Position numbers and translations under genes: made by a program. This document shows positions 6,401-38,761 of a stretch of DNA of 38,789 nt, one piece after another. Location: the IMG/VR virus record IMGVR_UViG_3300017917_000442, positions 1 to 38,789 of that record. One strand, given 5' to 3'. The stretch's first letter is position 1. Every line of letters begins with the position of its first letter. The notes under the pieces were generated by a model that searched no databases, was not told the origin of the DNA, and worked only from the letters and a program-made list of their open reading frames with translations. Origin of the DNA: a virus.

Positions 6401-6889
6401 GAACCAAGTCCTCCAACATTGGATGAGTTAACAACTGAATATGCCGGCTTACAAAATTATAAGATGATTAGCGATAATATGATTCTTAACAGTGTTGAGT
6501 TCAAACCACTGTTCGGTCAAAAGGCCGCAGAAGAATTACGTGCTATCATTAAAGTAATTCCAGCAGCTGGAACTACTGCAAGCACAAGTGAAATTAAAAA
6601 CTTAGTTGTAAATTGTATGGACACCTATTTCACTCTTGACAAATGGGACTTTGGTGCTACATTTTACTTCTCAGAATTAGCGGCATATATACATAGTCAG
6701 ATCGGAGATATTGTGAGTTCAGTTGTATTAGTTCCATTAAACCCTCAAAAGTCATTTGGTGACTTATACGAGATTCGCTCCGCTCCTAATCAAATTTTTG
6801 TTAATGCCGCAACTGTAAATGACGTTCAAGTCATCCAGGCATTGACCAGTACAAACATTCGTACTGCACCCGGTAGTGGAGTAATTTAA
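3425..6889 (+). CDS. 6: gp6-like baseplate wedge protein, enlarged
   Basis: A 1154-aa homologue of T4 gp6, whose dimers tie neighbouring wedges into the baseplate ring. The gp6 signature is clear in the first 130 residues (FVDYLRLYYPETFNDYIES, LLDLMAFMGQSLAFRTDLN, YLDTAERRDSVVKLANLVSY). The C-terminal 180 residues contain the J-like portion (LDKWDFGATFYFSELAAYIH, FGDLYEIR). T4 gp6 is 660 aa, so about 500 residues are extra, mostly beta-rich material between residues 430 and 960. Residues 822-835 read DNDADGVPDNPDFF, a calcium-loop-like motif resembling thrombospondin type 3 repeats. The stop overlaps the next start by one base (TAATG), implying translational coupling. Confidence 0.92.
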   Translation: MAKTTRQTAIFGVEDWKRIYQTYREADFQSYDFETLRKSFVDYLRLYYPETFNDYIESSEFIALLDLMAFMGQSLAFRTDLNTRENYLDTAERRDSVVKLANLVSYTPKRNTESSGFLKVFSVQTTENVLDYNGVNLASVTVNWADPSNLDWQEQFTAIINASLVNTQRVGRPGNKQTILGVDTQEYTINLVPGYLPIVSYTATVDGINMPFEAVNATSTGKNYVYEPSPKPNGQFNILFRNDQLGFASANTGYFFLFKQGVLQNQDFNLPERISNRTVDINIEGINNEDKWLYQIDNVGNIAQEWTFVENVYGAAVEQLTPGTRTIFSVTSRTNDQITLNFGDGVFATIPVGLFRCYVRASNGLQYIINPSEMQSVVIPISYVSRTGNLETITFTCGITQPVSNSQARETIGEIKQRAPARYYTQNRMVNGEDYNNFPFTAYNSILKSKALNRASIGTSRYLDLVDNTGKYSSTNIFAADGALFEANNLPAFQFTWLTNNDISDVITNKITPVLIKDGAAQFYYANYTRPNLAVLDITWNQSTTQLNETTGYFQNALGNPVQIANYSSNNTKYIQVGSLVKFVAPTGYFFDKDNQLVAGTPVKADEKYAIWASPTAIYLDGTNQGIGNFADGLGPVVLNNFVPTGAIASQVIPLFTTDFTATFAQSIAEQIRLNRNFGLGYDNTGAITGTPYTWYLINSANLAVNANFSLANAGSTAGVQSDASWFIQATTDGSTYTVQSRSLDYYFGSVLETRFFFFTNQKIYDSRTGTVISDFVNVLKTNSKPDNNTPLEGDTKLRIIGQPIESDGYVDDFQVLVGFQDNDADGVPDNPDFFNDIVAPSVNSNLKLVFLQRTVDFDNLQRYLLVESGVVNSEFPTLAAIELAMGEYVDGQVFYAYNPNNLPASQIDYSAGTFYIITLNNDGTRTVDPTESGAWIARVGRQDLYFQYRHNSPLTSRLDPGTTNIIDIYIVTLAYYIAYQNWIKDSTGTVTEPSPPTLDELTTEYAGLQNYKMISDNMILNSVEFKPLFGQKAAEELRAIIKVIPAAGTTASTSEIKNLVVNCMDTYFTLDKWDFGATFYFSELAAYIHSQIGDIVSSVVLVPLNPQKSFGDLYEIRSAPNQIFVNAATVNDVQVIQALTSTNIRTAPGSGVI

Positions 6890-24576: not shown

Positions 24577-24606
24577 TAGTAGCCGAAAGGCACTGTAGCA
24601 TTACCA

Positions 24607-24626
24607 AAAGCCCCGCAAGGGGCTTT
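24607..24626 (+). terminator. intrinsic terminator closing the structural module
   Basis: A perfect eight-base stem AAAGCCCC/GGGGCTTT closes a GCAA tetraloop of the stable GNRA type. The following TTTACCTTATCTCTATTTT is T-rich but interrupted, so termination may be partial. It lies 30 bases after the last structural gene and is the only GC-rich hairpin I saw in the intergenic DNA. Confidence 0.75.
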
Positions 24627-24652
24627 ACCTTATCTCTATTTTGTAGTATAAT
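24624..24652 (+). promoter_or_regulatory. sigma70-like promoter for the accessory cassette
   Basis: TTTACC (24624-24629), a 17-base spacer and a perfect TATAAT (24647-24652) lie directly after the terminator and in front of the ATG at 24659. Transcription would start about at the start codon, giving a leaderless message; no ribosome binding site is present. TATAATAA could also be read as a degenerate late-promoter element. Confidence 0.5.
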
Positions 24653-24658
24653 AATCCT

Positions 24659-24961
24659 ATGGATACTGAACAACTTATTAGTCACGGTCGTGCTCGTTTC
24701 GAACACGCAGCCGCAAAACGACTACTCAAAGAAAAATATCAAGGCAAATTAACATTTGCATACAACGGCGGCATGTGGCGTGCTGGCCCAGAACTTATTA
24801 CATTACTAACTGGACGCACCGAAGATATTGTTTTACTAGACTTATATGAAAATCCTGTGCGTGTTAATGCGCCGCAATTGCTACAAGAAACCGAACAGCG
24901 TTGGCAAGAACAAATGAATGCCTGGCTAATAGAATACGAACAACTATCACGCAATAGATGA
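24659..24961 (+). CDS. conserved hypothetical phage protein, 100 aa
   Basis: A small, soluble, mostly helical protein. The N-terminus reads LISHGRARFEHAAAKRLLKE, then FAYNGGMWRAGPELITLL, then a short strand IVLLDLYENPVRVN and a C-terminal helix with QRWQEQMNAWLIEYEQL. I recognise this pattern from hypothetical proteins of T4-like aquatic phages but know no function. It is first after the terminator, lacks a visible ribosome binding site and sits six bases after a TATAAT. Its stop overlaps the next start (ATGA), so it leads the glycosyltransferase operon. Confidence 0.72.
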   Translation: MDTEQLISHGRARFEHAAAKRLLKEKYQGKLTFAYNGGMWRAGPELITLLTGRTEDIVLLDLYENPVRVNAPQLLQETEQRWQEQMNAWLIEYEQLSRNR

Positions 24962-25755
24962 CCACCGGCGCATTAATATTCGCTTACAATAATGAACAGA
25001 CAGACTATGTTGCCATGGCTGCATGGACTGCTAAAAACATTCGTAGGCATCTTGGCATTCCGGTTGCCCTTGTGACAGACAAGTTAACTGATTTATACTT
25101 TGAACAAGTAATTATTCAGGAATCAAAAAGTGATAATGGGCGTTGGTTTAGCGATTATGAAACTAATGTAGTGTGGCGCAACCAAACAAGGGTTAATGCT
25201 TACGAATTAAGTCCGTGGAATCAAACATTAGTTCTTGATGCGGATTATGTAGTAGCCAGTGACCAATTAAAAAATGTACTTGCAAGTTCAGAAGAATTTT
25301 TAGCTCATCGGTGGGCATATGATATAACCAGCATTGATAACTTTGATGGGCTTAATCATTTTGGATCGCACCGAATGCCTATGTGGTGGGCAACTGTTAT
25401 GATGTTTAGGCGTAGCGAACACGCTAAATTAATATTTGAGTCTATGTCAATGATTCGTGACAATTGGACGCATTATCGAAATATCTATAAAAATTCATAC
25501 GGCACATATCGTAATGATCACGCTTTAAGTATTGCGTTAGGTATAGCCAGCGGGCATACACTTAACCACGCAAGTATTCCGTGGAACCTAGCAAGCCTTA
25601 CACCAGATCATCGATTAACACAATTAGGACCAGATCACTATCGAGTAGACTTTATGACTTCAGATAAAAAACCTCGCTGGATTGAATTAAAGAATCAAGA
25701 CTTCCATGCTATGGGTAAAAAAGCACTAGGAGAAATTGTTGCCAATCCTTGCTGA
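24958..25755 (+). CDS. GT-A-like glycosyltransferase
   Basis: A 265-aa cytoplasmic protein resembling nucleotide-sugar-dependent glycosyltransferases with a GT-A fold. The N-terminal Rossmann-like half reads GALIFAYNN, then GIPVALVTD, and leads to the DxD-type metal site LVLDADYVV (DAD at 94-96). The second half has MWWATVMMFRRSEHAKLIFE (141-160) and YRNDHALSIALGIASG (184-199), where glycosyltransferases often place an acceptor-site Asp. The donor and acceptor cannot be told from sequence. The next gene product shares the same layout, so they are tandem paralogues. There is no membrane segment. It overlaps both neighbours. Confidence 0.72.
   Translation: MTTGALIFAYNNEQTDYVAMAAWTAKNIRRHLGIPVALVTDKLTDLYFEQVIIQESKSDNGRWFSDYETNVVWRNQTRVNAYELSPWNQTLVLDADYVVASDQLKNVLASSEEFLAHRWAYDITSIDNFDGLNHFGSHRMPMWWATVMMFRRSEHAKLIFESMSMIRDNWTHYRNIYKNSYGTYRNDHALSIALGIASGHTLNHASIPWNLASLTPDHRLTQLGPDHYRVDFMTSDKKPRWIELKNQDFHAMGKKALGEIVANPC
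25728..25732 (+). promoter_or_regulatory. ribosome binding site that decides a TTG start
   Basis: AGGAG precedes two consecutive TTG codons at 25736 and 25739. The spacing is three bases to the first and six to the second, so 25739 is the likelier initiator. No ATG occurs in this frame before residue 46. Confidence 0.6.
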
Positions 25756-26461
25756 ACGTGGATACGTTATTCCTGCTATAGGTAAAGAGTATGTTGCTTG
25801 TGCTCAACAACTATCAAATAGCATACTTAAATTTCATCCTAATGCCAATATCACTATCATAACCGAAGAAATGTTGCCGCACGGTCGTCAAGGTAAATTT
25901 GCAGACGACTGGCAAATGTTTTCTGTAAGTCCTTATAGACAAACAATTAAGCTGGAAGCAGACATGATCTGTGCCAGCCCAATTGATCATTGGTGGACTT
26001 TATTTGAACGTCGTGATGTTGTTATCAGTCAAGGTGCTAGAGATTTTTACGACCAGTCATCTAAGTCAAGATACTATCGTAAACTATTCGATGAAAATAA
26101 TCTTCCTGATGTGTATAACGCTATTACTTACTGGCGTGTTAGTCAAACTGCAAAAGACTTTTTTATATTAGTGCGTAACATTTTTGAAAACTGGAACGAA
26201 TATAAAAAATTATTAAAATTTCCCGACGACGAGCCAACTACTGATGTAGTATATTCCATGGCCGCAGTTATTATGGGCGAGGAAAACTTAACGTTGCCAA
26301 AAGGATTAGGGCCAACAATTGTTCATATGAAGCGTTATATTAATCCAATTCAATCAACTGATTGGACTAAAGAGTTAATTTGGGAAGCGGATCCTTTTAG
26401 AATTAACACAGTGGCTCAATGGGGATTAGTTCATTATCATATTAAGGAATGGTCGTTATGA
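25739..26461 (+). CDS. GT-A-like glycosyltransferase, paralogue of the preceding gene
   Basis: A 240-aa protein (241 if TTG 25736 is used) starting at a TTG codon inside the end of the preceding gene. The N-terminus (GYVIPAIGKEYVACAQQLSN) and HPNANITIITEE fit a GT-A nucleotide-binding half. The expected DxD is LEADMIC (EAD at 73-75), so the first Asp is Glu. The C-terminal half repeats the layout of the upstream paralogue: ENWNEYKKL, then PTTDVVYSMAAVIMG against YRNDHALSIALGIASG. It ends with a conserved-looking WGLVHYHIKEW. EAD is tolerated in some families but may alter metal use. A donor-specificity variant, or a partner of the upstream enzyme, seems likely. Enzyme class is inferred. Confidence 0.65.
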   Translation: MPILAERGYVIPAIGKEYVACAQQLSNSILKFHPNANITIITEEMLPHGRQGKFADDWQMFSVSPYRQTIKLEADMICASPIDHWWTLFERRDVVISQGARDFYDQSSKSRYYRKLFDENNLPDVYNAITYWRVSQTAKDFFILVRNIFENWNEYKKLLKFPDDEPTTDVVYSMAAVIMGEENLTLPKGLGPTIVHMKRYINPIQSTDWTKELIWEADPFRINTVAQWGLVHYHIKEWSL

Positions 26462-26799
26462 GCATAACACCTGAAGAGTTTTGGTCAATACTGCATGCTC
26501 CAGTAGAAACAAAATCTATATTTTATCGTTTGTATTATAACGATGACGGCACGCCTCTTTGTTATAGCATGGAGGATTTACCAGGTAATTATATAGACAT
26601 CGATGTAGAAACGTATCACAGAAGTCCATCAAATGTTCGAGTTATTGACGGTAAATTAAAAGAAATAAAACCAGCAAGTTTAGTTAAAAAATTAAGGCCA
26701 AGCAATGATGGAGTTGCATGTGATCCTAGAGACATTTGTATAGTTGCAAATTCTCAACCAAATATTAAATGGAGTTTAAAAACGCATGAAACAGATTGA
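26458..26799 (+). CDS. conserved hypothetical phage protein, 113 aa
   Basis: The ATG at 26458 is chosen over the in-frame ATG at 26449 because it gives an ATGA overlap with the upstream stop and lies nine bases after AAGGA, whereas 26449 overlaps that site. The protein has an aromatic N-terminal half (FYRLYYNDDGTPLCYSMEDL, then PGNYIDID) and a C-terminal half ending GVACDPRDICIVANSQPN and IKWSLKTH. It is probably a small alpha/beta domain. I recognise the pattern from hypothetical proteins of T4-like aquatic phages, without a known function. Placement between two glycosyltransferases suggests an accessory role in the same process. Confidence 0.7.
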   Translation: MSITPEEFWSILHAPVETKSIFYRLYYNDDGTPLCYSMEDLPGNYIDIDVETYHRSPSNVRVIDGKLKEIKPASLVKKLRPSNDGVACDPRDICIVANSQPNIKWSLKTHETD

Positions 26800-27709
26800 T
26801 ATAGCAGACTTAGACTGCATATACCTTAGCTATGACGAGCCTAACAAAGAAGAATTTTGGGTTAAAATTAAAAACATAGTACCTTGGGCTGTGCGTGTAG
26901 ACGGAGTTAAAGGATCAGATGCTGCCCACAAGGCTGCTGCCGAAGCATCAACTACAGAACGGTTTATTCTTATCGACGGCGATAATATGCCTTATCCAGA
27001 ATTCTTTAATCAAACATTAGAGTTCAAAGATGATGAGTGGGAGTCGGCAGTATATCGTTGGCGTGCTAAAAATAATATCAATGGCTTAATGTATGGCAAC
27101 GGTGGATTGAGTTCATGGACCAAGACTTTTGTTAATAACATGCGAACACATGAAAACACCGACGGTGATGCTGCTAATGATGTAGAGTTTTGTTTTTATC
27201 CAAACTACTGGGCTATGCATGATTGCTTTTCGACTACATTCCCTAACCAATCGGAGTTTCATGCTTGGCGTGCCGGCTTCCGTGAAGGAGTTAAGATGTG
27301 TTTGAACAAAGGTCGTTGTCCAGATGTTAACGAGTTTAAAGATCAAGTGCATCAGCGCAATTTAGACCATCTTACTATCTGGCATAATATTGGACGTGAT
27401 GTTGAGTATGGTATCTGGGCTATTGCTGGTGCTAGAATGGGTACTTACATGACTATGTTGACTAACTGGGATTATAAACTTGTGCAAGACTTTACAGCAC
27501 TACATGATCTATGGAAAACAGTTGAAACATCAGATCCAGAAATTCTTGCAGGTCGTGTAGCCGAAGAGCTTGACGCACTGGACTTGCCTATTACTATGTA
27601 CGGTCCTGAAGAAAGTAAGTTCTTCAAGTTTCACTATCGTAGCAATTGGAACAACGCAGGAATTATGGTTCGAGAGATGGATGTGATTAGACGTCAAGAA
27701 GGTTGGTAA
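26786..27709 (+). CDS. glycosyltransferase-like protein (GT-A type)
   Basis: A 307-aa protein in which residues 10-70 form the nucleotide-sugar half: CIYLSYDEPN, AVRVDGVKGSDAAHKAA, and FILIDGDNMPY with the DxD-type metal site DGD at 64-66. The second half has YRWRAKNNINGLMYGNGGLS (90-109), then HAWRAGFREGVKM (159-171) and WHNIGRDVEYGIWAIAGARM (199-218). Members known to me are annotated as phage or LPS-type glycosyltransferases, without proven substrates. It overlaps the preceding gene by 14 bases. Its last 23 bases overlap the end of the convergent SGNH hydrolase gene, so the two 3' ends cannot be separated by a terminator. Confidence 0.7.
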   Translation: MKQIDIADLDCIYLSYDEPNKEEFWVKIKNIVPWAVRVDGVKGSDAAHKAAAEASTTERFILIDGDNMPYPEFFNQTLEFKDDEWESAVYRWRAKNNINGLMYGNGGLSSWTKTFVNNMRTHENTDGDAANDVEFCFYPNYWAMHDCFSTTFPNQSEFHAWRAGFREGVKMCLNKGRCPDVNEFKDQVHQRNLDHLTIWHNIGRDVEYGIWAIAGARMGTYMTMLTNWDYKLVQDFTALHDLWKTVETSDPEILAGRVAEELDALDLPITMYGPEESKFFKFHYRSNWNNAGIMVREMDVIRRQEGW

Positions 27710-28388
27710 ATTGTTTAGCTAACTCTTTATGTGTTTGCACGCCATAATGAAATCCATCTCTAGCTAAATCAATAATTTTAGTTGGTGAAATAACTTTTCC
27801 GGGTAATTTAGTATAATCTACAAATTGAGTGTGCCAACCTGGAATAAAACTATGTACAGTTGGTAAATTTAAACTAGACATAAAATTAAAGTTTGTTTGC
27901 CAATTTTCAAAGTTTTCTTGCTCAGTATAGATTGGTGAGCATTCCGTTCTCTCATCATCAAACCAATCTGTATGTGGAAGTTCTCTGCGATGGCTAAATG
28001 TGTAGTGTACTAGTATTGCTACTGGATCAAAAAACTCCAAAAGGGTTTTTGTTTTTCTAGACATCCAATCATTACTTGCACCATTTAAACTAAAGTTTAG
28101 AACAGGAATATCGAGTATTCTGGACAGCTCGCTAGGCCAAGTATCTTCTTCGTTTACACCTAGACCTAACGTAAAACTATCTCCTATAGCTAATATAGGT
28201 CGTGTTGTTGTTGTAGGCAATTTAAATCTAAAGCCTATCTCATTAAACGAGTAAGTAACTTTAGGATAGGATTTGTAGTGATTACGATCAAAGCAATGTT
28301 CTAAACTATCCAAGCCTAAAGTATCACACTTTAAGTTAGAATAAAAAGGTATGCCGATCGTTTGTTTGAGGTCATTAATTTGATACAT
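27687..28388 (-). CDS. SGNH/GDSL-family hydrolase, the only reverse-strand gene
   Basis: A 233-aa serine esterase/acetylhydrolase-like protein. Block I is AIGDSFTLGLG with the nucleophile Ser71. A block III-like NGASND stands at 102-107, and block V is DGFHYG, giving the Asp211/His214 pair. Family members remove acyl groups from sugars, peptidoglycan or lipids. There is no signal peptide, so it should act in the cytoplasm, for example on glycan precursors. It is the only gene on the minus strand. Its 3' end overlaps the glycosyltransferase by 23 bases, and its start is 11 bases from the divergent sulfotransferase-like gene. This placement looks like a separately acquired insert. The substrate is unknown. 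Confidence 0.8.
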   Translation of the reverse strand: MYQINDLKQTIGIPFYSNLKCDTLGLDSLEHCFDRNHYKSYPKVTYSFNEIGFRFKLPTTTTRPILAIGDSFTLGLGVNEEDTWPSELSRILDIPVLNFSLNGASNDWMSRKTKTLLEFFDPVAILVHYTFSHRRELPHTDWFDDERTECSPIYTEQENFENWQTNFNFMSSLNLPTVHSFIPGWHTQFVDYTKLPGKVISPTKIIDLARDGFHYGVQTHKELAKQFTNLLDV

Positions 28389-28397
28389 AAATATTTA
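28388..28397. promoter_or_regulatory. palindromic TAAATATTTA between divergent starts
   Basis: The perfect ten-base palindrome TAAATATTTA overlaps the minus-strand start codon and ends two bases before the plus-strand ATG at 28400. Read rightward it is part of CATAAATA (28386-28393), six bases before the ATG. Read leftward it gives TAAATA three bases before the hydrolase ATG. It could be a two-way late-promoter core or a regulator site. The motif is AT-rich, so chance is possible. Confidence 0.35.
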
Positions 28398-28399
28398 CA

Positions 28400-29482
28400 A
28401 TGAATATTCTAGTACTTACTCCAGATAGAGTTGGGTCAACATTATTACAGCGTTTAGTTACTGTTTACGCTAATATAAACGAAAATAATAATCCACTAAC
28501 GATTAACTTACACGAGTTAACCAATGGTATTACCCCATACTACAACGAAACATTTGCTCGCACCGTTTTAGGCAAAAAAGAAGGTGCGTGGGGATACCAT
28601 CAGAGTTTAGAAACTATTGCTGATTTATTAAAGAATTGCGGGCATGATGTGACTTCTCGTTTGGCCCATTACCATATTAAGAATAGAAAAGATCCTCTGT
28701 CGGAACAACTTGATTTTTACAAATACCTTAACAAAAATTTTTATATCATAGCAGCCAAAAGAAAAAATCTATTTGAACACGTTATGAGTTGGTGTATTGT
28801 TGTTGAGTCTAAAAAATTAAATGTTTACTCAACTGAAGAAAAATTTCGTACGTTCGAACAAATACAAAAACACGGTATAACAGTACAATCCGAAAACATC
28901 GAAAGATATCTTAATCAATATCAAGAATACCTCGAATGGGTTGATAATCATTTTCAAGTCAATAGCTACTTTGAATATGAAAGAGATTTACCAAATATTG
29001 AAAATTTTGTTTTAAATCTTAATATCTTTAATTCGTTGCCGCATCTAGTCACTTGGGAAGATCGTTTTAACATTAGTTGGAATGATTGGAATCGAATACA
29101 CTATCTATTAAGTCTAGTGCCGTTTGATCATATGTTCTCTTCTGAAGAAAACGAATTCATTAACCAACACATCGAAACATATTCCAAAGTTAAAATAGAA
29201 TTGCAAGACTTACAAGACCAAGGAGTACTAGTAAGTGGCATTCCAATTAAACTACACACTCTAGCAGAAAAGGCTAAAATTATTCGAAACATCGATCAGT
29301 GTTTAGAGTATTACAATAATTGGATCAGCATTAACAGACCTACATTTGCAGTAAAGTACGAGCCACAAACTCTAAATGAAGTAGCACACTTAGAATATAA
29401 TAAATGGAATACCGGTGTCCAAGATTCATTGCTCACAGTTCCTACCAAACAACTATTACTTGCTGATTTAAAAATCTCTTGA
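28400..29482 (+). CDS. sulfotransferase-like protein
   Basis: A 360-aa protein with the two PAPS-binding landmarks of cytosolic-type sulfotransferases. The 5'-phosphosulfate loop is LTPDRVGSTLLQRL (residues 6-19), close to the PRSGTT-L consensus. The 3'-phosphate segment is AAKRKNLFEHVMSW (118-131), with a basic residue eight or nine positions before Ser130. The rest is helical and less conserved, as usual for acceptor-binding parts. It would move sulfate from PAPS to a hydroxyl, probably on a sugar given the neighbouring glycosyltransferases. No ribosome binding site is visible; a CATAAATA element lies six bases before the ATG. A P-loop kinase relative is the main alternative. Confidence 0.65.
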   Translation: MNILVLTPDRVGSTLLQRLVTVYANINENNNPLTINLHELTNGITPYYNETFARTVLGKKEGAWGYHQSLETIADLLKNCGHDVTSRLAHYHIKNRKDPLSEQLDFYKYLNKNFYIIAAKRKNLFEHVMSWCIVVESKKLNVYSTEEKFRTFEQIQKHGITVQSENIERYLNQYQEYLEWVDNHFQVNSYFEYERDLPNIENFVLNLNIFNSLPHLVTWEDRFNISWNDWNRIHYLLSLVPFDHMFSSEENEFINQHIETYSKVKIELQDLQDQGVLVSGIPIKLHTLAEKAKIIRNIDQCLEYYNNWISINRPTFAVKYEPQTLNEVAHLEYNKWNTGVQDSLLTVPTKQLLLADLKIS

Positions 29483-29507
29483 TTTTTAATCAGTTTTCCT
29501 GTATAAT
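29479..29507 (+). promoter_or_regulatory. sigma70-like promoter for the radical SAM operon
   Basis: TTGATT (29479-29484) overlaps the upstream stop codon. It is followed by an exact 17-base spacer and TATAAT (29502-29507). The ATG at 29513 is five bases further on, so the message would be essentially leaderless; no ribosome binding site is present. This is the best sigma70-type match in the window. The AT-only hairpin in the spacer (TGATT/AATCA) is too weak to call a terminator. Confidence 0.55.
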
Positions 29508-29512
29508 TTAAT

Positions 29513-31453
29513 ATGATCATAGCATTCTATCCTGGTAGCGGTGGCAACCGATACTACCATCATATAAACGGGCGTTCAGAATTTAAACCTCAAACGGCCT
29601 ATGACAATCATCTAATAGCACAAAGTTCTACCTATCGCTATTTAGACAACGACACAATCGGTTTACCAGACGTACCGGCTTTGATACTAACCCATTGTGT
29701 CAATGTTCCACTACTTAAAAAACACTTTCCAGAGCACAAAGAAATTGTTGTTATAGTAGCAGATCTTGACCTTTGCATAAAGCGAGAATGGTATCTAGTA
29801 GATCAACACATAGACAAAGGATTTAAAAACAAATACGAGCATGCGTATTCTAATATTGCACACCACTATAGGTATTATAAAGAATTTCCTTTAGATACTA
29901 CAGGTGCTACAACCGTTATTAATATCAATACAGATGACAGTTGGTTCGCCCAAAGTATGCGAGAAGAACTCAGCTTAATTGATGCGCCAGAACATACTCG
30001 AGCACTAGAAGATTATAAAAAAGCACAACACGTAGATCTTAGCGAACTACCCGGCGACAAAATTGTTAACGGCTTTAAAAGTAAGTTCTTAAACGATGCT
30101 GAAATGATGAAGCAACAACTAGACACTATTGGTCCTGGTATGTGCCTAGCAAAATGGAAACAAGTTAGTTTACACTTACCAACTGGTCTTAACAACAGTT
30201 GCTATCATCCACCACTGCATGAAATAAAATTAGAAGATATACAACGTAGTCCCGGCGGGCTACACAACACAGCATATAAAAAAGAGCAACGCAAAATAAT
30301 GCTTGATGGTGGTAAACCAGCAGAGTGTAGTTATTGTTGGGCTATGGAAGATCAAGGAAAGTTATCAGATAGGCACTATCGTTCTGGTGAACCCTGGGCC
30401 GCAAAAGATTTTGGAAAGATTGTTAGTGGAGAATGGAACGATGATGTTATACCCAGCTATGTGGAAGTTAATTTTAATCATGCTTGTAATCTCAAATGTA
30501 GCTATTGTAGTCCTCAGTTTAGTTCAAGTTGGCAACAAGAAGTTGAGCAATCTGGGGGATATCCTACAAGCACTACTCACAACGACCCTAGTCACTTTGT
30601 TGGCCGCAATCGCCCTATCCCCGTTCGTGATGATAATCCTTATGTAGATGCATTTTGGTCTTGGTGGCCGGAACTATATCCAGAGCTAGAACACTTCCGC
30701 ATGACCGGCGGTGAGCCACTGCTTGATAAGAATACATATCGTGTATTCGATTATGTACTGGCAAATCCTAGCCCTAAATTACATTTAAATGTAACATCAA
30801 ACTTTAGCGTAGATGAAAAGTCATGGCAAAAGTATTTGTCCTATGTTAAACAACTCTGCGAAGGTGAGCAGATTGAACACTTTATGCAGTATGTTAGTTT
30901 AGATGCTTGGGGCACTCCGGCTGAATACATTAGACATGGATTGGATTTTAATCTGCTGTGGAGTCGTGTTAATCAGTTCTTAACAGAAATTCCAGGACGT
31001 AATAGCGTCACCTTTATTGTCACTATGAATAATCTAAGCCTTACAACGCTGGATCGACTGTTTGCCGGCATACTAGAGCTTAGAGATCAGTACAGTACAA
31101 CATATCAACGTGTATGGTTTGATACTCCTGTGCTACGCCAACCTACATGGCAACGCTTAGACATACTACCAGAAAGTTATGTTGATCGTTTAGAGCAATT
31201 AAAAGCATGGATGCAGACTCAACAAGAAACACCAGAAACAAGATTTAAAGGATTTAAGGATTACGAAATAGCACGCTTGGATAGAGATATTGCTTGGATG
31301 CGTGAAGGGCAACAACACGATCATTCAGCGGCCAAAGCAGACTTTTATCGATTCTTTAAGGAACACGATCGCAGACGCGGTACTAATTTTGTAGCTACAT
31401 TTCCTACAATGGTCTCTTGGTGGACTGAATGTGAATACTGGAGTCGTCAGTGA
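29513..31453 (+). CDS. radical SAM protein 1: P-loop/sulfotransferase-like domain fused to twitch-type radical SAM
   Basis: A 646-aa fusion. Residues 1-185 resemble a P-loop sulfotransferase or kinase fold: IIAFYPGSGGNRYYHHI echoes the YPKSGTT loop, followed by ALILTHCVN and EIVVIVADLDLCIKREW. From about 205 comes an auxiliary-cluster-like cysteine set: C211, C230 in NNSCYHPPLH, and C272/C275 (ECSYCW). The radical SAM core has CNLKCSYC (C325, C329, C332) for the 4Fe-4S cluster and TGGEP at 398-402 for SAM. Later landmarks are NVTSNFS and SLDAWGTPAEYIRHGLD. The C-terminus carries EHDRRRGTNF, shared with radical SAM 2. The enzyme should generate a 5'-deoxyadenosyl radical; the substrate is unknown. 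The fusion links it to the sulfotransferase theme upstream. Confidence 0.85.
   Translation: MIIAFYPGSGGNRYYHHINGRSEFKPQTAYDNHLIAQSSTYRYLDNDTIGLPDVPALILTHCVNVPLLKKHFPEHKEIVVIVADLDLCIKREWYLVDQHIDKGFKNKYEHAYSNIAHHYRYYKEFPLDTTGATTVININTDDSWFAQSMREELSLIDAPEHTRALEDYKKAQHVDLSELPGDKIVNGFKSKFLNDAEMMKQQLDTIGPGMCLAKWKQVSLHLPTGLNNSCYHPPLHEIKLEDIQRSPGGLHNTAYKKEQRKIMLDGGKPAECSYCWAMEDQGKLSDRHYRSGEPWAAKDFGKIVSGEWNDDVIPSYVEVNFNHACNLKCSYCSPQFSSSWQQEVEQSGGYPTSTTHNDPSHFVGRNRPIPVRDDNPYVDAFWSWWPELYPELEHFRMTGGEPLLDKNTYRVFDYVLANPSPKLHLNVTSNFSVDEKSWQKYLSYVKQLCEGEQIEHFMQYVSLDAWGTPAEYIRHGLDFNLLWSRVNQFLTEIPGRNSVTFIVTMNNLSLTTLDRLFAGILELRDQYSTTYQRVWFDTPVLRQPTWQRLDILPESYVDRLEQLKAWMQTQQETPETRFKGFKDYEIARLDRDIAWMREGQQHDHSAAKADFYRFFKEHDRRRGTNFVATFPTMVSWWTECEYWSRQ
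31440..31443 (+). promoter_or_regulatory. ribosome binding site supporting a GTG start
   Basis: GGAG lies six bases before GTG at 31450, which overlaps the upstream stop as GTGA. This is better placed than the next in-frame ATG at 31483, which has no comparable site. Confidence 0.6.
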
Positions 31454-32595
31454 TAAACGGTAGAAGATTAGTCAGTGATACAATGAGCGAAGTATTTGAT
31501 GTACTAAAGCCTTGGACCGATGAATACTTTTGGGATTTTAATTTGGTCAATCTTACCCCCGGAAGCATTTATATTTTTGGTCGACAGCATTTTTTAGACC
31601 ACTTACCATTGATAAAAGAACTAGCAGAAACAGATCAATATACTTTTATATTTGGCAACAGTGCTGAAGGTGCGTGGACACTAGAAAGTCAATTAAAACA
31701 ACTTCGAGTAGACGAACTAGTGCGTGCTGGTAAAATACTTGTTATTGGTGGAGCAGATATAGCACCCGAATATAATATTCTAACACACGAACATTTTTTA
31801 CCTAGAATATTAGACTACAAAGAAAACATACAAGCACAAAGTTATACCAAAGACATATTTGCTAAAACTGATAAGCCTTATAAGTTTTTGTTTTTAAATG
31901 GCCGTGCTCGCCCGCATCGCAAGTATCTATATGAACGTTTAAGGCGTACAGGTGCGATAGATCAAAGTCTTTGGACAATGCTAGATAGCAAACCTACAAT
32001 AGTTAGACATTTTAACTTTGTTGAAGGTGACACTAACATTATGGCAACTCCTTCGCCACTACAGCGACTGCCAGACCAATATGAAGTAGAACGCTATCGT
32101 GAGCCTGTATTTGGTCCTATCATACCAGAAAACTGTTTCCTTAAACAAGAATTGTTTAATCGAGAGTGGGGAGAAATATATCTAACTCCAGAACCGTACG
32201 TTGACACTTATTTTAGTTTAGTAACTGAAACTATCTGTGCCGAAAGTCCTTATAGTTTTCGTACAGAAAAAATGGCTAAACCGCTGGCAATAGGACACCC
32301 TTTTATTGTAGCTAGCAACGCTGGATTTTATCGAGACTTACACAACTTAGGATTTCGAACATTTGGACATGTTATAGATGAGTCATTTGATTCAATCGAA
32401 CACCACCAAGATCGTTGTGATCGTATTGTAGAAATAGTGACAGACTTGTCACAGCAGGACCTTGCTGGTTTCTTAAGCGAGTGTCAGGATGTATGTAAAT
32501 ACAATCAACAGCGTTTAGCTGAGTTGCAACAAGAAGTACGTCAAGAATTCCCTAACCGTTTTACCCAATTTATCAATGAACGATCTAGAGTTTAA
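31450..32595 (+). CDS. GT-B/exostosin-like glycosyltransferase candidate
   Basis: A 381-aa protein started at GTG 31450. The N-terminal half has Rossmann-like strands (SIYIFGRQHFLDHLPLIKEL, ILVIGGADI) and FLFLNGRARPHRKYLYERL (147-164). The C-terminal half contains FSLVTETICAESPYSFRTEK (255-274), then MAKPLAIGHPFIVASNAGF and LGFRTFGHVIDESFDSI. This is the nucleotide-sugar-binding pattern of exostosin/fucosyltransferase-like GT-B enzymes, in which the SFRTEK-x-x-KPLA-x-x-HPF stretch is most conserved. It lies between the first two radical SAM genes, overlapping them by 4 and 20 bases, so it belongs to their operon. There is no membrane segment. Enzyme class is inferred from motifs; the sugar is unknown. 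Confidence 0.58.
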   Translation: MINGRRLVSDTMSEVFDVLKPWTDEYFWDFNLVNLTPGSIYIFGRQHFLDHLPLIKELAETDQYTFIFGNSAEGAWTLESQLKQLRVDELVRAGKILVIGGADIAPEYNILTHEHFLPRILDYKENIQAQSYTKDIFAKTDKPYKFLFLNGRARPHRKYLYERLRRTGAIDQSLWTMLDSKPTIVRHFNFVEGDTNIMATPSPLQRLPDQYEVERYREPVFGPIIPENCFLKQELFNREWGEIYLTPEPYVDTYFSLVTETICAESPYSFRTEKMAKPLAIGHPFIVASNAGFYRDLHNLGFRTFGHVIDESFDSIEHHQDRCDRIVEIVTDLSQQDLAGFLSECQDVCKYNQQRLAELQQEVRQEFPNRFTQFINERSRV

Positions 32596-33904
32596 ACAAC
32601 AGGTCTTAGACCCCAAAGGCACTTTCTGCGCTGCCAAATGGTACAATGCTACTATATGGCTAGGCTCCGGTATGACTACCAGTTGCCATCACCCTCCTGC
32701 ACACAAAGTAGATGCTGACCAAGTATCTTTTAGTCCAGCAATACTGCACAACACAGAACAAAAGAAACAAGACCGTGCTCAGATGTTGCGTGGAGAACGC
32801 CCTGCTGGTTGTGAATACTGTTGGAAGATCGAAGATATGGGCAGAGATGCTATATCTGATCGTGTATATAAAAGTAAAATATACACACTAGAAGCATTAG
32901 ACGTAGCATATAACACACCTCCGGAACAAAATGTTAATCTTAAAACACTCGAAATTGCGTTTGATCGCACTTGCCAATTCGCATGTAGTTATTGCAATCC
33001 AGCGTTCTCTAGTACTTGGGTTAAAGATATTAGGAATAATGGTCCTTATACCAATCTTGTTAGTGACGGGCGCGGTCACTTTACTCACCCTCATGATAGC
33101 AGTCAGCTATACCGTTTTGGAGAAACTAATCCTTATGTTGAAGCGTTCTTCCGCTGGTGGGAAACAGACTTACATAGAACACTACAAGAACTACGCATCA
33201 CCGGAGGAGAACCCTTTATGTCAGGAGAAACATGGAAACTCTTGGACTGGTTCAAAAACAACAAGGGCAAGTCGCAGACTAGGTTAGCTATTAACAGCAA
33301 TCTAGGTGTAGAAGTAGACGTAGATCGCTTGCTAGACAGCATAGAAGGACTGGAAGTAGATATCTATACCAGTAATGAATCAGTAGGCAGCCAAGCCGAA
33401 TACATTCGCGACGGATTAGATTATGAGCATTGGTTTGCTAATCTACGTCGATTGCTAGACTCAGACCGTATTCGTGCTGTGCATTGTATGTCGACTATTA
33501 ACGCACTATGCTTAGATACACTGCCTAGACTGTTAAACCAACTGCTACGATTAAAAGAATACTATGGTCGCGAGCGCATGAGTTTTACATTAAACATACT
33601 ACGTTTCCCAAGTTTCCAAAGCCCGTTAGTATTACCATACGAGCTACGCACTGTATATCAATATGAATTAGAAGCATGGTTAGACTCTAACCGTATGAAT
33701 CAGTTCTTACACGAGCACGAAATTAACCATATGCAACGCTTAATTGATTACTTGGACGTAGTTAAAACACCGCACTCAGAAGCATTTGAACTAGATAAGT
33801 TGCGTAATGATTTTAAACAGTTCTATACACAATACGATCAACGTCGCGGTAAGAACTTTCGTGCTACATTTCCTAGATTACAAGAATGGTATGATTCACT
33901 ATGA
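32576..33904 (+). CDS. radical SAM protein 2 (N-terminal twitch-like cysteine domain)
   Basis: A 442-aa protein. The N-terminal cysteine set is C18 (TFCAAKW), C37 in TTSCHHPPAHK, and C79/C82 (GCEYCW), matching radical SAM 1 rather than the later copies. The core motif is CQFACSYC (C133, C137, C140), with TGGEP at 209-213. NSN follows at the next strand, and EYIRDGLDYEHW is present. The expected SxD strand reads TSNES instead, so the usual Asp is missing. The C-terminus carries QYDQRRGKNF and ATFPRLQEWY, again like radical SAM 1. It overlaps the upstream GT-like gene by 20 bases and the next gene as ATGA. It is probably the closest paralogue of radical SAM 1 without the P-loop domain. The substrate is unknown. 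Confidence 0.84.
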   Translation: MNDLEFKQQVLDPKGTFCAAKWYNATIWLGSGMTTSCHHPPAHKVDADQVSFSPAILHNTEQKKQDRAQMLRGERPAGCEYCWKIEDMGRDAISDRVYKSKIYTLEALDVAYNTPPEQNVNLKTLEIAFDRTCQFACSYCNPAFSSTWVKDIRNNGPYTNLVSDGRGHFTHPHDSSQLYRFGETNPYVEAFFRWWETDLHRTLQELRITGGEPFMSGETWKLLDWFKNNKGKSQTRLAINSNLGVEVDVDRLLDSIEGLEVDIYTSNESVGSQAEYIRDGLDYEHWFANLRRLLDSDRIRAVHCMSTINALCLDTLPRLLNQLLRLKEYYGRERMSFTLNILRFPSFQSPLVLPYELRTVYQYELEAWLDSNRMNQFLHEHEINHMQRLIDYLDVVKTPHSEAFELDKLRNDFKQFYTQYDQRRGKNFRATFPRLQEWYDSL

Positions 33905-35229
33905 CCGATAAAATTATAGGCAAGTACAACTGGCGAGATCGTGTACCTAGTTATATTCCTTTAGAAGACTTAACTGAGCAACAGCGTCATAGACTAATGG
34001 AGTCAGACTCGTTCTGTATGTTGCCTTGGATACACTTGCACGCATGGCCCGACGGACGTGCTTATCCTTGCTGTTTAGGACGTGCAGAGCACCCTGTGGG
34101 CAACTTAAAAGAAAACACCATGCGTGAAGTATGGAACGGTGATGCCATGCGTGAAATGCGCTTAAACATGCTGGCGGATCAACCCTGTAAACAGTGCGGC
34201 GACTGCTATGAACAAGAAGCCTACGGCTTTGCATCAATGCGTAATAACTCAAATAAGAACTTTGGGCAACATATAGCAGAAATAGATCAAACACTGCCCG
34301 ATGGCAGTTTACCCGACATGCGGCTACACTATTGGGACGTTCGCTTTAGTAATATCTGCCAACTTAAATGTCGTAGTTGCGGTAGTATATTCAGTTCACG
34401 TTGGTACGACGATGATGTTAAGCTATGGGGCCGAGCACTACGCCCACGTGTACAGTTTGCCGGACGTCATGAAGAAGACATTTGGGAACAGATGCAAGAG
34501 CATATTCCGCACTTAGATCAAATATACTTTGCCGGCGGCGAACCCTTAATTATGGAAGAGCATAACCGTATTCTAAAGCTGTTAATAGAAAAAGGTAATA
34601 CTCGTGTACGCTTGATCTACAATACTAACCTAAATGAACTACGCTATAAGAAAGAGTCCGTACTGGACTTATGGAGTCACTTTCCAAACGTATGTGTAGC
34701 TGCCAGTTTAGATGATATGGGCGAGCGTGCTGAAGTTATACGCTCGGGTACAGACTGGGCCAAAGTAGAACAAAACATACGCGACTTAAAACGCGAATGC
34801 CCGCATATAGACTTTATGATCAGCCCTACACTAAGCATGATGAATATTTGGAACTTTACTAGATTTCATCGTTATATGGTAGAGTCGGGTTTTATACAAG
34901 CCAAAGACTTTAACTTAAACATACTGCAAGGTCCGCAGGACTATCGTATTGATATGCTACCCGCAGAATTAAAGCAGCAGTTTAAAAAGGACTTTGAAGA
35001 ACATATTAAATGGTTAGAACCTATAGACACTATACAACGAGCAGTAGGCGGATTTCGGGGTGCTATAGAGTTTATGATGGCCACAGATAACAGTCACTTG
35101 CTACCAGACTTTTGGCGCACAGTTAATGACTTAGACTGGGCACGTTCAGAAAGTTTATTAAGTGTAGTACCCGAACTAGCGGCTATAGTACAGTATCGTC
35201 CAGAAGATCGAAGAATACCTATCAAATGA
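33901..35229 (+). CDS. radical SAM protein 3 (N-terminal twitch/SPASM-like domain)
   Basis: A 442-aa protein. Residues 38-102 are a clear SPASM/twitch-like auxiliary-cluster domain: FCMLPWIHLHAWPDGRAYPC (C39, C57/C58), GNLKENTMREVWNGDAMREM, then C96, C99 and C102. In classical SPASM enzymes this lies after the core; here it precedes it. The core is CQLKCRSC (C153, C157, C160), with AGGEP at 211-215, YNTNLN, and SLDDMGERAEVIRSG. The extra Cys (CKQCGDC) distinguishes it from its neighbours. The start overlaps the previous stop (ATGA), and its stop overlaps the next start the same way. The architecture matches proteins annotated as twitch domain-containing radical SAM proteins. The reaction is unknown. 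Confidence 0.88.
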   Translation: MTDKIIGKYNWRDRVPSYIPLEDLTEQQRHRLMESDSFCMLPWIHLHAWPDGRAYPCCLGRAEHPVGNLKENTMREVWNGDAMREMRLNMLADQPCKQCGDCYEQEAYGFASMRNNSNKNFGQHIAEIDQTLPDGSLPDMRLHYWDVRFSNICQLKCRSCGSIFSSRWYDDDVKLWGRALRPRVQFAGRHEEDIWEQMQEHIPHLDQIYFAGGEPLIMEEHNRILKLLIEKGNTRVRLIYNTNLNELRYKKESVLDLWSHFPNVCVAASLDDMGERAEVIRSGTDWAKVEQNIRDLKRECPHIDFMISPTLSMMNIWNFTRFHRYMVESGFIQAKDFNLNILQGPQDYRIDMLPAELKQQFKKDFEEHIKWLEPIDTIQRAVGGFRGAIEFMMATDNSHLLPDFWRTVNDLDWARSESLLSVVPELAAIVQYRPEDRRIPIK

Positions 35230-36440
35230 ATTTACCTACAGAAAAGTTCTGCGTATTACCTTGGGTCAGTTTAGAAACTAGCCCTGTAGGTACTGTACGT
35301 CCTTGCTGTCTAGCTGAACAAGAGCTACGTGATGATTCAGGCAATAAGTTTAACTTACTAACAGCTGAGTTTACTGCTATACAAAACAGTCAGGACATGC
35401 GCAGACTACGTGAACAGTTCCTAGCAGGCGAGCAACCTGAAACTTGCCGTAAGTGCTGGAGAGAAGAACGGTCAGGACGTACTAGCAAGCGTATGCATAC
35501 ACTGGATAGACTAAAGCATGTAATTCCAGATCAACCCTGGACAGCAGATGCTCGACCACTAATGTTCTTAGACTTAAAGCTGGGCAATATATGTAATTTA
35601 AAATGCCGTATCTGCGGCTCGTGGTCGTCAAGTCAGTTTGCCACAGAAGAGCTTGCACACTTACCCGCAGGTGAAGATCGTAAGACCAGCTTTCATTATA
35701 CTATGCTACGGCAGGGTGCATGGCCCAGAGAGAATCCTGTGTTCTGGCGTGAACTAGCACAGGTAGCAGATCAAATACGCTACTTAGAGTTTACTGGTGG
35801 CGAACCCTTTATGATCGAAGAACACTTTGAACTGTTAAGATCATTAGTCTCTGCAGGACTAGCCGGTAATATTGAAATACACTATAACACAAACGGTACA
35901 CAGTTTCCTGCAGACGCACAGTTCATTTGGCAGTCGTTTAAAACAGTTGAAATAGCATTTAGTATAGATGACTTAGGCCCACGCTTTGAATATCAACGTA
36001 CTAATGCAGTCTGGTCTGAAGTAGAAGCAAACATAGCCCGTTTCCGCGAACTACGCAGAGTATCCCCTAACATACAGTTGCAAGTATGCTCAACTGTTAA
36101 TGTGTTTAATGTACTGTACTTAGAAGAACTAAGTCACTGGATTGATCAACAGAACTTTGACTTTGTTTACTGGAATATGATGCATGAAGCTTACTACTTT
36201 AGTATCAGCACACTGCCCGATAGAGCTAAACGTGTTATAGATCAACGCTTAGAACTAGCTAACGTAAACCCCGAGGACCGCAAAGAGTTTGATCGCATAC
36301 GTAAGTTTATGCTGAATGGTGCTAGTTTAGATGGCAATATACTACGTATGCGTATAGCCGACTTAGATCGTAAACGTGGAACAGACTTACGACTAGTAGA
36401 ACCCGAATTTGCAGAATTAATCGACTATGTCAAAACCTGA
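35226..36440 (+). CDS. radical SAM protein 4 (N-terminal twitch/SPASM-like domain)
   Basis: A 404-aa protein, the shortest of the five. The N-terminal domain starts at once: KFCVLPWVSLETSPVGTVRP with C9, then C27/C28, and C74/C77 (TCRKCW). The spacing of CC and CxxC is as in SPASM/twitch domains. The core is CNLKCRIC (C123, C127, C130), with TGGEP at 190-194, HYNTNGT, and SIDDLGPRFEYQRTN. The C-terminus reads DLDRKRGTDL, a version of the DRRRGTNF element of radical SAM 1 and 2. There is no membrane segment. It overlaps its neighbours by 4 and 14 bases. It probably binds two iron-sulfur clusters. The substrate is unknown. Confidence 0.87.
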   Translation: MNLPTEKFCVLPWVSLETSPVGTVRPCCLAEQELRDDSGNKFNLLTAEFTAIQNSQDMRRLREQFLAGEQPETCRKCWREERSGRTSKRMHTLDRLKHVIPDQPWTADARPLMFLDLKLGNICNLKCRICGSWSSSQFATEELAHLPAGEDRKTSFHYTMLRQGAWPRENPVFWRELAQVADQIRYLEFTGGEPFMIEEHFELLRSLVSAGLAGNIEIHYNTNGTQFPADAQFIWQSFKTVEIAFSIDDLGPRFEYQRTNAVWSEVEANIARFRELRRVSPNIQLQVCSTVNVFNVLYLEELSHWIDQQNFDFVYWNMMHEAYYFSISTLPDRAKRVIDQRLELANVNPEDRKEFDRIRKFMLNGASLDGNILRMRIADLDRKRGTDLRLVEPEFAELIDYVKT

Positions 36441-37722
36441 AACACTGTGTATGGCACCTTGGACTCATACGTATTTGAGCCCACAGACAGAACGGCGTAT
36501 GTGCTGTGCAAGCCGCGAGCCCGCACAGAACTTTGAACAGTATATAGATACAGCCGCAGGCACAGGTGAATATCGTCCGCTGACCTTAGAAGAACATTGG
36601 AATTCCGAGCATATGAAGTCAGTACGTCGTCGTATGCTGGCCGGAGAAGAATTGCCCGAGTGTGCTGTCTGTAATAATCGGTTATTAAACACCGACGTTT
36701 ACCGTAGCTATTTTGACCACTTATTTGGCAGTAAATATAATGAAGTAGTAACTACAACCGACAGTACAGGATACACTACTATGCGACCCATTAGCTGGGA
36801 TTATCGCTTTAGTAACTTGTGTAACTTTAAATGTCGTATGTGTGGTGATATGTTGTCCAGTGCGTGGGAGTCAGAACAGCGTCAGCACAACATGATTAAC
36901 TGGCAGAATCCAAAGAATAATTGGATGCGACCAGAAGTTAAGGAGCAGATTAGTCAGTTTCAAGATACTCAAATTGAGCAAGAGTTTGCTCAAGCAGTAG
37001 AAGAACACCGTGTAGAAGAAGTATATTGGGTAGGCGGAGAGCCCTTAATGTACGAGCAACACTGGCGTTATATGAAACGCATAATCGAACTAGGTGATGG
37101 GCCTCGAGTCTACGCTAGGTATAACACCAACCTTAGCCGCTGTAACTATCGTGGGATTGATCTTTTTAGTGATATTCTTGATCACGTTAGAGATTATCAG
37201 ATCTGTGCAAGCCTCGACGGAACGGGCAGAATTGGAGAATACATTAGAACAGGCCTCGACTACAATCAATGGCTTGAGAACTTCCGTAGAGCAGTTGCAC
37301 ACAGACGTTATGGACGCCAAGTTAGAATTGACTTTACACTTACACTGCCCGGACTGTTTGAAATCCCAAACATTATGCAACTTGCACAAGAGTACAATAC
37401 AGAAGTCCTAGCTAAAGTAGTATTCAGCTTTACACCCGATATTATACTAAGCCCGTTAGCATTACCCAGAAAGATACTGGATCGTAAGATCGAAGAACTA
37501 ATACCCGGGACTACAGGAGCAGTACGTGATGTACTAAACCAGCTAGGAACTAGGCCCACTTTTGCTGAACAATGGAACCAAGGCGGAGCCGCTGCTGCTG
37601 CGCTGGTTCGAGGAAAACAACGTATTCTACAGTTAGAACAAATCCGCGGAGATACGTATACACTCCGTGATATACTTAAACAAGACCCAGAAATATTGGA
37701 ATGGTATGAAAACATCAATTGA
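36427..37722 (+). CDS. radical SAM protein 5 (N-terminal twitch/SPASM-like domain)
   Basis: A 431-aa protein. The N-terminal set is C8 (LCMAPW), C26/C27 (RMCCASR), and C79/C82 (ECAVCNNRLL), with EEHWNSEHMKSVRRRMLAGE in between, the usual W-N-x-x-x-M-x-x-x-R helix of SPASM/twitch domains. The core is CNFKCRMC (C132, C136, C139), with VGGEP at 202-206, RYNTNLS, and SLDGTGRIGEYIRTGLDYNQ. The C-terminal 90 residues differ from the other four (PGTTGAVRDVLNQLGTRPTF, an Ala-rich GGAAAAALVRGK), suggesting a separate substrate or partner. It is coupled to both neighbours by overlaps of 14 and 17 bases. The substrate is unknown. Confidence 0.87.
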   Translation: MSKPETLCMAPWTHTYLSPQTERRMCCASREPAQNFEQYIDTAAGTGEYRPLTLEEHWNSEHMKSVRRRMLAGEELPECAVCNNRLLNTDVYRSYFDHLFGSKYNEVVTTTDSTGYTTMRPISWDYRFSNLCNFKCRMCGDMLSSAWESEQRQHNMINWQNPKNNWMRPEVKEQISQFQDTQIEQEFAQAVEEHRVEEVYWVGGEPLMYEQHWRYMKRIIELGDGPRVYARYNTNLSRCNYRGIDLFSDILDHVRDYQICASLDGTGRIGEYIRTGLDYNQWLENFRRAVAHRRYGRQVRIDFTLTLPGLFEIPNIMQLAQEYNTEVLAKVVFSFTPDIILSPLALPRKILDRKIEELIPGTTGAVRDVLNQLGTRPTFAEQWNQGGAAAAALVRGKQRILQLEQIRGDTYTLRDILKQDPEILEWYENIN

Positions 37723-38761
37723 ACGCATAGAAATAGTACTAAAGAATGATGATACTGGCAGTTTATTACCAGTATGGATAGACGTATACGATAGTAGTTT
37801 AAGCCGCCGTTGGTTAGCCGCCGTAAATGAATTGTTACGTAGTAATCGGCATCTTGAGAAAAACTATTGTTTTTTAGGATTCCCTAGAGCAAAAAGAGAT
37901 GGCGATCTTATTGTAGCTGAAATTAACCGTAGTATTGTAGCTATACAAGCGAGTGGCCTCGGTTACTTTTTGGACGACCATTTTACATTAGCTAACAGTA
38001 TTAATGAAGATCTAAGTATTAATCATGAGCACTTTAATCAGCTACATCGCTACTTTGAAGACTTACAGGGTACTAGTGGTAATTTAAGTGAGTACTACAC
38101 TCGTGCTGATGATGCTACACGCTGGCATATACGTCAGCTTAACTTACTGTGTCATGAGTTTGAATCTTGGGCATTAAGCAATCGTAAAGTTAATACTGCT
38201 CCAGAATGGGTGCGCCCTAGTCAGCTAATGTGTTGGCTTAATAGTCCACGCTTTGTACTAGAGCCGGAAGACTATGAGCTATTTGGTATAGAAACTATTA
38301 ACCGTGAGCTGGGCGGAGTATACGTAGGTGTTAATAAAGCAGTGGGTAAACACCATTGGGAAGTATTCCAAGACGAAGGTAAACATGGTGCTATGCTGGA
38401 CACTCTAACTACTACAGCTATGCGTGGGCAAACAGAAGCTGCTGGAGACTTTGATATAGAGTGGGCTAACAATCCCGGAGCATATGAGTGGCAACGTAAG
38501 CGTTTAGCACAGTTTAGACAGTGGTTAATAGATAATGGTATAGACCCGGAAGATAAGAGTCTTACTATAGGGCATCCACAGGTAGGGCATGTAGACCTAC
38601 AGGCTAGCTTTGGTACTACTGACTACTGGGATATATGGCAACAGCTCAGCTCACACTTAAACGTATATCAAGTTAAAACTAGCGATGCTGAAGCAACATA
38701 TAAGTACAATTGGTCCGACCCGGACTATCAACAACAGCAAATCACAGCACTAAAAGGATAA
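37706..38761 (+). CDS. unrecognised 351-aa protein at the end of the radical SAM series
   Basis: I do not recognise this family. The ATG at 37706 is preferred over the in-frame GTG at 37667 because it has GGA five bases upstream and only a 17-base overlap with radical SAM 5. The protein begins with strands (IERIEIVLKNDDTGSLLPVW, then IDVYDSSLSRRWLAAVNELL). A middle with many His, Trp and Tyr follows: TRWHIRQLNLLCHEFESWAL, then RPSQLMCWLNSPRF. The C-terminal third has ELGGVYVGVNKAVGKHHWEV, then QVGHVDLQASFGTTDYWDIW. There is no CxxxCxxC, no membrane helix and no signal peptide. The His/Asp/Glu-rich stretches could bind metal. Position alone suggests it works with the radical SAM enzymes as partner, scaffold, next enzyme or substrate. 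Confidence 0.7.
   Translation: MKTSIERIEIVLKNDDTGSLLPVWIDVYDSSLSRRWLAAVNELLRSNRHLEKNYCFLGFPRAKRDGDLIVAEINRSIVAIQASGLGYFLDDHFTLANSINEDLSINHEHFNQLHRYFEDLQGTSGNLSEYYTRADDATRWHIRQLNLLCHEFESWALSNRKVNTAPEWVRPSQLMCWLNSPRFVLEPEDYELFGIETINRELGGVYVGVNKAVGKHHWEVFQDEGKHGAMLDTLTTTAMRGQTEAAGDFDIEWANNPGAYEWQRKRLAQFRQWLIDNGIDPEDKSLTIGHPQVGHVDLQASFGTTDYWDIWQQLSSHLNVYQVKTSDAEATYKYNWSDPDYQQQQITALKG

Follow-up and report, generated by a model that had tools for sequence, protein, structure and literature searches.

A conserved five-paralogue radical SAM block in freshwater jumbo phages and its possible role in glycan tailoring

Radical SAM genes of phages have for the most part been recorded as dispersed auxiliary genes, and radical SAM enzymes of the twitch and SPASM types are best known from peptides and proteins. 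We know of no member of the N-terminal-twitch family NF033640 (NCBIfam N_Twi_rSAM) with a demonstrated substrate or an assigned reaction. Phage glycosyltransferase islands that carry radical SAM cassettes have been read as loci of O-chain modification (PMC7029224). The host recognition cluster (HRC) of the pelagimyophages, defined as the region between VrlC and gp14, adjoins tail-fibre genes, contains many glycosyltransferases and radical SAM cassettes, and was read as serving host surface modification and coinfection avoidance (PMC7029224). The cyanophage LPS gene clusters place a carbamoyltransferase with sugar genes in aquatic myoviruses, as is the case here; radical SAM genes are absent from the text of that paper (PMC3037559). 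The locus described below, within which the window ends, shares with the HRC its tail-fibre neighbours, its richness in glycosyltransferases and its radical SAM cassettes.

Gene content of the block

The locus lies on a 38,789-base IMG/VR virus record, which was analysed over its whole length (the window). The left part of the window is a myovirus baseplate and tail region, with genes for a gp25-like wedge and a further wedge protein of 1154 aa, for a tail protein of 4861 aa and for tail-fibre-like products. The 1154-aa baseplate wedge protein matches PHROG 10646 (E = 2e-282), which confirms the original statement that the DNA comes from a phage. The isolated relatives of the wedge protein are jumbo phages, with most of the records listed at 345–490 kb, and the window is therefore a fragment of a jumbo myovirus. 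The 4861-aa tail-region protein (6889–21474) gave a single FG-GAP repeat match.

Seven overlapping genes on the plus strand form the right-hand end of the window: A (29513–31453; 646 aa, with the radical SAM enzyme at residues 209–635), GT (31450–32595; 381 aa), B (32576–33904; 442 aa), C (33901–35229; 442 aa), D (35226–36440; 404 aa), E (36427–37722; 431 aa) and U (37706–38761; 351 aa from an ATG, or 364 aa from an upstream GTG). The open reading frames reproduce the coordinates first given for these genes, and the overlaps, at 4, 20, 4, 4, 14 and 17 bases in succession, fall in the range of 4–20 bases noted then. All seven genes of the originally delimited set (29513–38761) stand, but its start does not, since the system begins upstream at g100 (24659–24961, plus strand, 100 aa); nor is U its end in related phages, where the system runs on into a carbamoyltransferase gene. 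After g100 come g265 (24958–25755), g241 (25736–26461), g116 (26449–26799), which encodes a small conserved protein, and g307 (26786–27709), all on the plus strand. Two variable inserts separate g307 from A. One is an SGNH/GDSL hydrolase gene on the minus strand (27687–28388; PF00657, E = 2e-5), found at the same position in three of 59 contigs; the other is a sulfotransferase-like gene on the plus strand (28400–29482), which was assigned by eye and has no Pfam match.

The proposal that the locus encodes five N-terminal-twitch radical SAM enzymes is upheld by the search against the radical SAM model: A–E score 313, 295, 409, 330 and 291 bits in order, all above the curated NF033640 cut-off of 170 bits, and the alignments span 334–396 of the 398 model positions. 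The CxxxCxxC core starts at residues 325, 133, 153, 123 and 132 and is followed by GGEP in each protein, exactly as had been read before, and the 'separate cysteine set' ahead of each core is the four-cysteine N-terminal twitch (C-x17/18-C … CxxC). The [4Fe–4S] ligand cysteines are invariant across 48–58 orthologues of B–E, and across just three full-length orthologues of A. Outside the core there are four to six cysteines before it and one or two scattered after it. The Pfam SPASM model (PF13186) matches C, D and E above its cut-off, but in their N-terminal part. Full SPASM radical SAM enzymes have two auxiliary clusters and a C-terminal seven-cysteine domain, and neither Pfam nor the cysteine positions place such a domain in A–E. 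Pairwise identity among the five is only 21–33%, so they are diverged, as had been predicted, and recent duplication is rejected. The C orthologues fall into two subtypes, ~85% and ~48% identical to C of the window. The N-terminal ~192–195 residues of A (window 29513–30088) are an accessory fusion seen in the window and in only three of 58 relatives, and gave no credible match in a sequence-profile search against PDB sequences. This fused domain is P-loop-like (YPGSGGNR) and is encoded by a separate gene upstream of A in four relatives (L049, L051, L054 and L094).

The AlphaFold model of GT (pLDDT 92.7) resembles GT-B proteins throughout (Z 10.8–13.5; best match Z 13.5 over 271 residues, r.m.s.d. 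4.1): the structures listed to rank 50 are all GT-B glycosyltransferases or synthases of that fold, T4 BGT and AGT among them. GT is thus predicted by fold to be a two-Rossmann GT-B glycosyltransferase; the sequence-profile search against PDB sequences returned no credible match for it. By motif only, g265, g241 and g307 may be GT-A-like glycosyltransferases, with an invariant DAD, EAD and DGD, respectively; none of them has a Pfam or PDB sequence match. The proteins g265 and g241 are homologous (hhalign 98%), g241 belongs to PHROG 1903, a family without annotated function, and g307 is the most conserved among the aligned members (81% mean column identity).

A search seeded with U gave 507 matches in viruses, whereas the 84,980 species genomes of bacteria and archaea contained none; U was found in viral contigs only. 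Its model is confident (pLDDT 87.6) and aligns with cyclophilins by VIA-align (Z 8.9–10.4, 132–148 residues, r.m.s.d. 3.4–4.2). The best Foldseek match is no better than E = 0.68, and the sequence-profile search against PDB sequences found nothing credible. The protein is predicted to be a cyclophilin-like barrel with a helical insert, a likeness seen with VIA-align alone, and may be a binding partner of E.

Conservation and transcription signals

Relatives were gathered with B and C as queries, and the comparison of gene order covers 59 non-redundant contigs of IMG/VR (B proteins less than 95% identical between contigs). Wherever a contig reaches, the order on one strand is g265–g241–g116–g307–(0–6 variable genes)–A–GT–B–C–D–E–U, and relatives carry more variable genes at sites from A to E; synteny is kept in 58 of 58, and GT was unrecognised in three of the 59 contigs. 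In almost all contigs the genes immediately upstream of the block are those for the tail fibres and the 4861-aa tail protein. Randomly scattered copies are rejected by this order and by the U-seeded loci, and the copies do not lie in unrelated places of neighbouring genomes. A test set beforehand asked whether at least three of the enzymes are kept with the 351-aa gene; all five are. E is next to U in 48 of 48 contigs. An independent search that used only U as query gave 79 newly fetched loci; E abuts U in 78 of them, and most of those that are long enough also have C, B and the carbamoyltransferase in the same plan.

In a tree of the five enzymes each paralogue forms its own clade (SH-aLRT 97–100), with A and B in one group and C, D and E in another. 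The median dN/dS is 0.07–0.11 for A–E and 0.17 for U. On this comparison of sequences the five-radical-SAM block is a conserved system, and the fixed order, separate clades and low dN/dS bear out the suggestion of a maintained set of enzymes as opposed to redundancy. A–E may form a single pathway.

The marine contigs L209 and L210 keep g424–g332–g265–g241–g307–A–B–C–E–D, with D and E swapped, and GT and U went undetected in both; a third, L208, ends before D. All five enzymes are thus also present in marine phage contigs, and the set therefore predates the freshwater clade. On a 169-kb marine contig, a relative of U is flanked by B-like and E-like genes. L208–L210, L246 and L276 are contigs of GTDB MAGs labelled Verrucomicrobia, Rickettsiales and Pelagibacter, and are evidently phage; L208–L210 carry the tail-gene and radical SAM cassette and L246 and L276 a related one, with seven consecutive N-twitch-like radical SAM genes in the marine contig L276 (NZHE01000012.1). 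Searches of isolated phages by tblastn gave no match for B, GT or U; C matched two Vibrio jumbo phages, at 24%, one short contig of marine origin and nothing else. The isolated Vibrio phage K566 (L006, 255 kb) has five to six related radical SAM matches, mostly clustered, and is a possible cultivated model. The bacterial MAGs L214, L227, L248, L270, L272 and L274 (several of them Bdellovibrionia) have between two and eight related radical SAM genes, most with a gene for a carbamoyltransferase or amidinotransferase in the vicinity. In a census of bacterial neighbours the first 25 families were too mixed to separate sugar from peptide.

The gene after U in relatives is a carbamoyltransferase of the NovN/GdmN/TobZ group (46 of 59 contigs), followed by an amidinotransferase gene on the other strand and then by more GT-like genes; the amidinotransferase was recognised in 47 of 79 U-seeded loci. 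These neighbour genes lie beyond the end of the window and match the NodU/TobZ-type O-carbamoyltransferases (E = 1e-32 to 1e-53) and the GATM/StrB1-type amidinotransferases (E = 1e-11 to 1e-14). Variable inserts in relatives encode SGNH-type hydrolases, a Stf0 sulfotransferase, an NAD epimerase, a DegT sugar aminotransferase and extra radical SAM enzymes. Judged by these gene families, the neighbour content is that of a glycan-modifying locus.

Nine phage contigs of 315–364 kb each contain 10–21 NF033640 genes, including a few weak matches, and exactly two A-type Fe–S carrier genes (PF01521). No Flavodoxin_1 or Fer2 ferredoxin match was found in ten large contigs, and the electrons for the enzymes are therefore presumably derived from the host.

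Early promoters of T4 have GTTTAC at −35, and late promoters of T4-like phages have the motif TATAAATA, with a poorly conserved first base (PMC1524935). In the window, a GC-rich hairpin (AAAGCCCC-GCAA-GGGGCTTT) and a T4-early/sigma70-type promoter, TTTACC-17-TATAAT, precede g100 on the plus strand (24600–24652, with the promoter at 24624–24652). This promoter, the only one of early type in the window, ends 6 nt before the g100 ATG. Gene g100 is kept in 54 of 59 contigs; of its 54 loci, 37 show the promoter pattern and 17 lack a strict match, while a hairpin with a T-rich tail is found in 44; the background is 0.3% and 2.5% per 100 bases. The pattern precedes none of the 14 other genes tested. 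Across the window (24647–24661) and the 54 loci, the −10 box ends 5–7 nt before the invariant ATG (54 of 54), a spacing from which a leaderless g100 mRNA is predicted. A sigma70-like promoter on the plus strand, TTGATT-17-TATAAT (29479–29507), lies 5 nt before A, a spacing like that at g100, where the opposite-strand SGNH gene interrupts the block of the window; TATAAT occurs upstream of A in only six of 58 relatives.

The late-type motif NATAAATA occurs four times in the window, 14–56 bases before a gene start in each case: once at the wedge gene, twice at the tail gene g424 and once at the inserted sulfotransferase-like gene, which is preceded by the late-type CATAAATA. The motif NATAAATA precedes g424 in 25 of 25 loci. 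The T4 late consensus TATAAATA itself occurs 0 times in the window versus 5.3 expected. From these motifs we infer that the block is probably transcribed early, as a unit of its own, and the tail genes late.

Possible function and rival readings

The reading that we tentatively favour, at something short of an even chance, is that the block from g100 to U (24659–38761), together with the carbamoyltransferase of the relatives, is a phage-encoded glycan-tailoring locus, with the host surface as its likeliest target. The glycosyltransferases (GT by fold, and putatively g265, g241 and g307) would assemble or extend a sugar chain, on which the five N-twitch radical SAM enzymes would carry out five different C–H-activating steps at successive sugars or sites; candidate steps are epimerization, dehydration or deoxygenation, dehydrogenation and carbon insertion. 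The carbamoyltransferase would decorate the product, as would the lineage-variable amidinotransferase, sulfotransferase, SGNH hydrolase, epimerase and aminotransferase. With a T4-early-type promoter behind a hairpin, transcription of the block would begin early in infection and be distinct from that of the late tail genes. This conserved early-type control would make a host surface glycan, or its lipid-linked or nucleotide-linked precursor, the likeliest target and disfavours simple decoration of the virion. The effect would be to change host receptors and to shut out competing phages. It is rather unlikely, on our estimate, that the five enzymes constitute a virus-specific, early-expressed five-step radical SAM pathway for a sugar or glycan chemistry not known from cells, in which the virus-only U is a dedicated component and the phage Fe–S carriers load the enzymes.

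Counting against a glycan product are the position of the block among tail genes, the late-type promoter of the inserted sulfotransferase-like gene and the predicted cyclophilin-like fold of U, which could bind a peptide. The same three observations favour modification of the phage's own tail-fibre or adhesin proteins, in which radical SAM enzymes would alter side chains and glycosyltransferases would glycosylate so that host recognition is tuned. We consider this unlikely, as the hairpin and early-type promoter set the block apart from the late structural genes and protein-only chemistry needs no sugar-tailoring neighbours. Nor need there be a single pathway: a tolerant island could accumulate paralogous radical SAM enzymes that act on independent substrates, and the varying copy number (at least 6–21 per record) and the extra radical SAM genes inside and outside the block are what such an island would contain. 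Freshwater contigs, however, keep the same five orthologues in fixed order with low dN/dS, and the full set of five is found again in marine contigs, which makes an island of this kind quite unlikely.

Two further substrates have been weighed. SPASM and twitch radical SAM enzymes are often RiPP maturases (reviewed in PMC11002830), and g100 and g116 are small conserved genes within the block, so that maturation of a small ribosomal peptide during infection might be considered. The overlapping genes from A to U leave no gap for a precursor, however, and A–E have no PqqD/RRE match at E = 0.01 (an RRE can escape sequence models). The lack of room for a precursor inside A–U and the missing PqqD domains thus disfavour a RiPP-like product; by eye g100 and g116 are unlike leader–core peptides, no export or protease gene was recognised, and we regard such a product as improbable. 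Hypermodification of the phage DNA against restriction, of the carbamoyl- or glycosyl-cytosine type, is the least probable of the four. A phage carbamoyltransferase of the PF02543/PF16861 type makes 5-carbamoyloxymethylcytosine (PMC8670742), the likeness of GT extends to T4 BGT and AGT among other GT-B folds, and an early-type promoter would suit the purpose; but in that study the contigs in which glycosyltransferases flank the carbamoyltransferase were unmodified ones (PMC8670742). The partner thymidylate synthase/dCMP hydroxymethylase (PF00303) is found in none of ten large contigs, which may be incomplete, and modification of the hmC type is rejected for this reason.

Relation to known systems

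The cassette of five enzymes is fixed, and strongly constrained by purifying selection, in many giant phages of fresh water; together with a promoter of its own, a partner protein and Fe–S carriers it amounts to a concrete, testable biosynthetic system. If the glycan-tailoring reading is true, phages perform radical chemistry in several steps, on glycans of the host or on their own virions. This could account for superinfection exclusion among uncultured hosts, and the five orthologous groups offer a route to the first substrate for NF033640. All five proteins exceed the cut-off of that family, and here five divergent paralogues share one operon.

The original prediction held that no phage pathway of this layout had been described. 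This is true of the layout, but not of the kind, as islands of radical SAM and glycosyltransferase genes have been reported in aquatic phages (PMC7029224, PMC5332604); searches of open-access literature found no account of the fixed core of five paralogues, of U as its partner, of the promoter arrangement or of the carrier genes. The T4-like marine viral genome TARA_ERS488813_N000010 is alike in combining many radical SAM genes (12) with an A-type Fe–S carrier in one phage; the passages considered mention neither a conserved cassette or gene order nor a promoter or partner genes (PMC5332604). New to the present locus are the early-type promoter and hairpin at the start of the block, in contrast to the late-type promoters of a tail gene. 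The pelagimyophage HRC has been described as hypervariable, with its radical SAM genes as added cassettes, whereas the block described here has a fixed five-paralogue core, U and its own early-type promoter, and is carried by jumbo phages.
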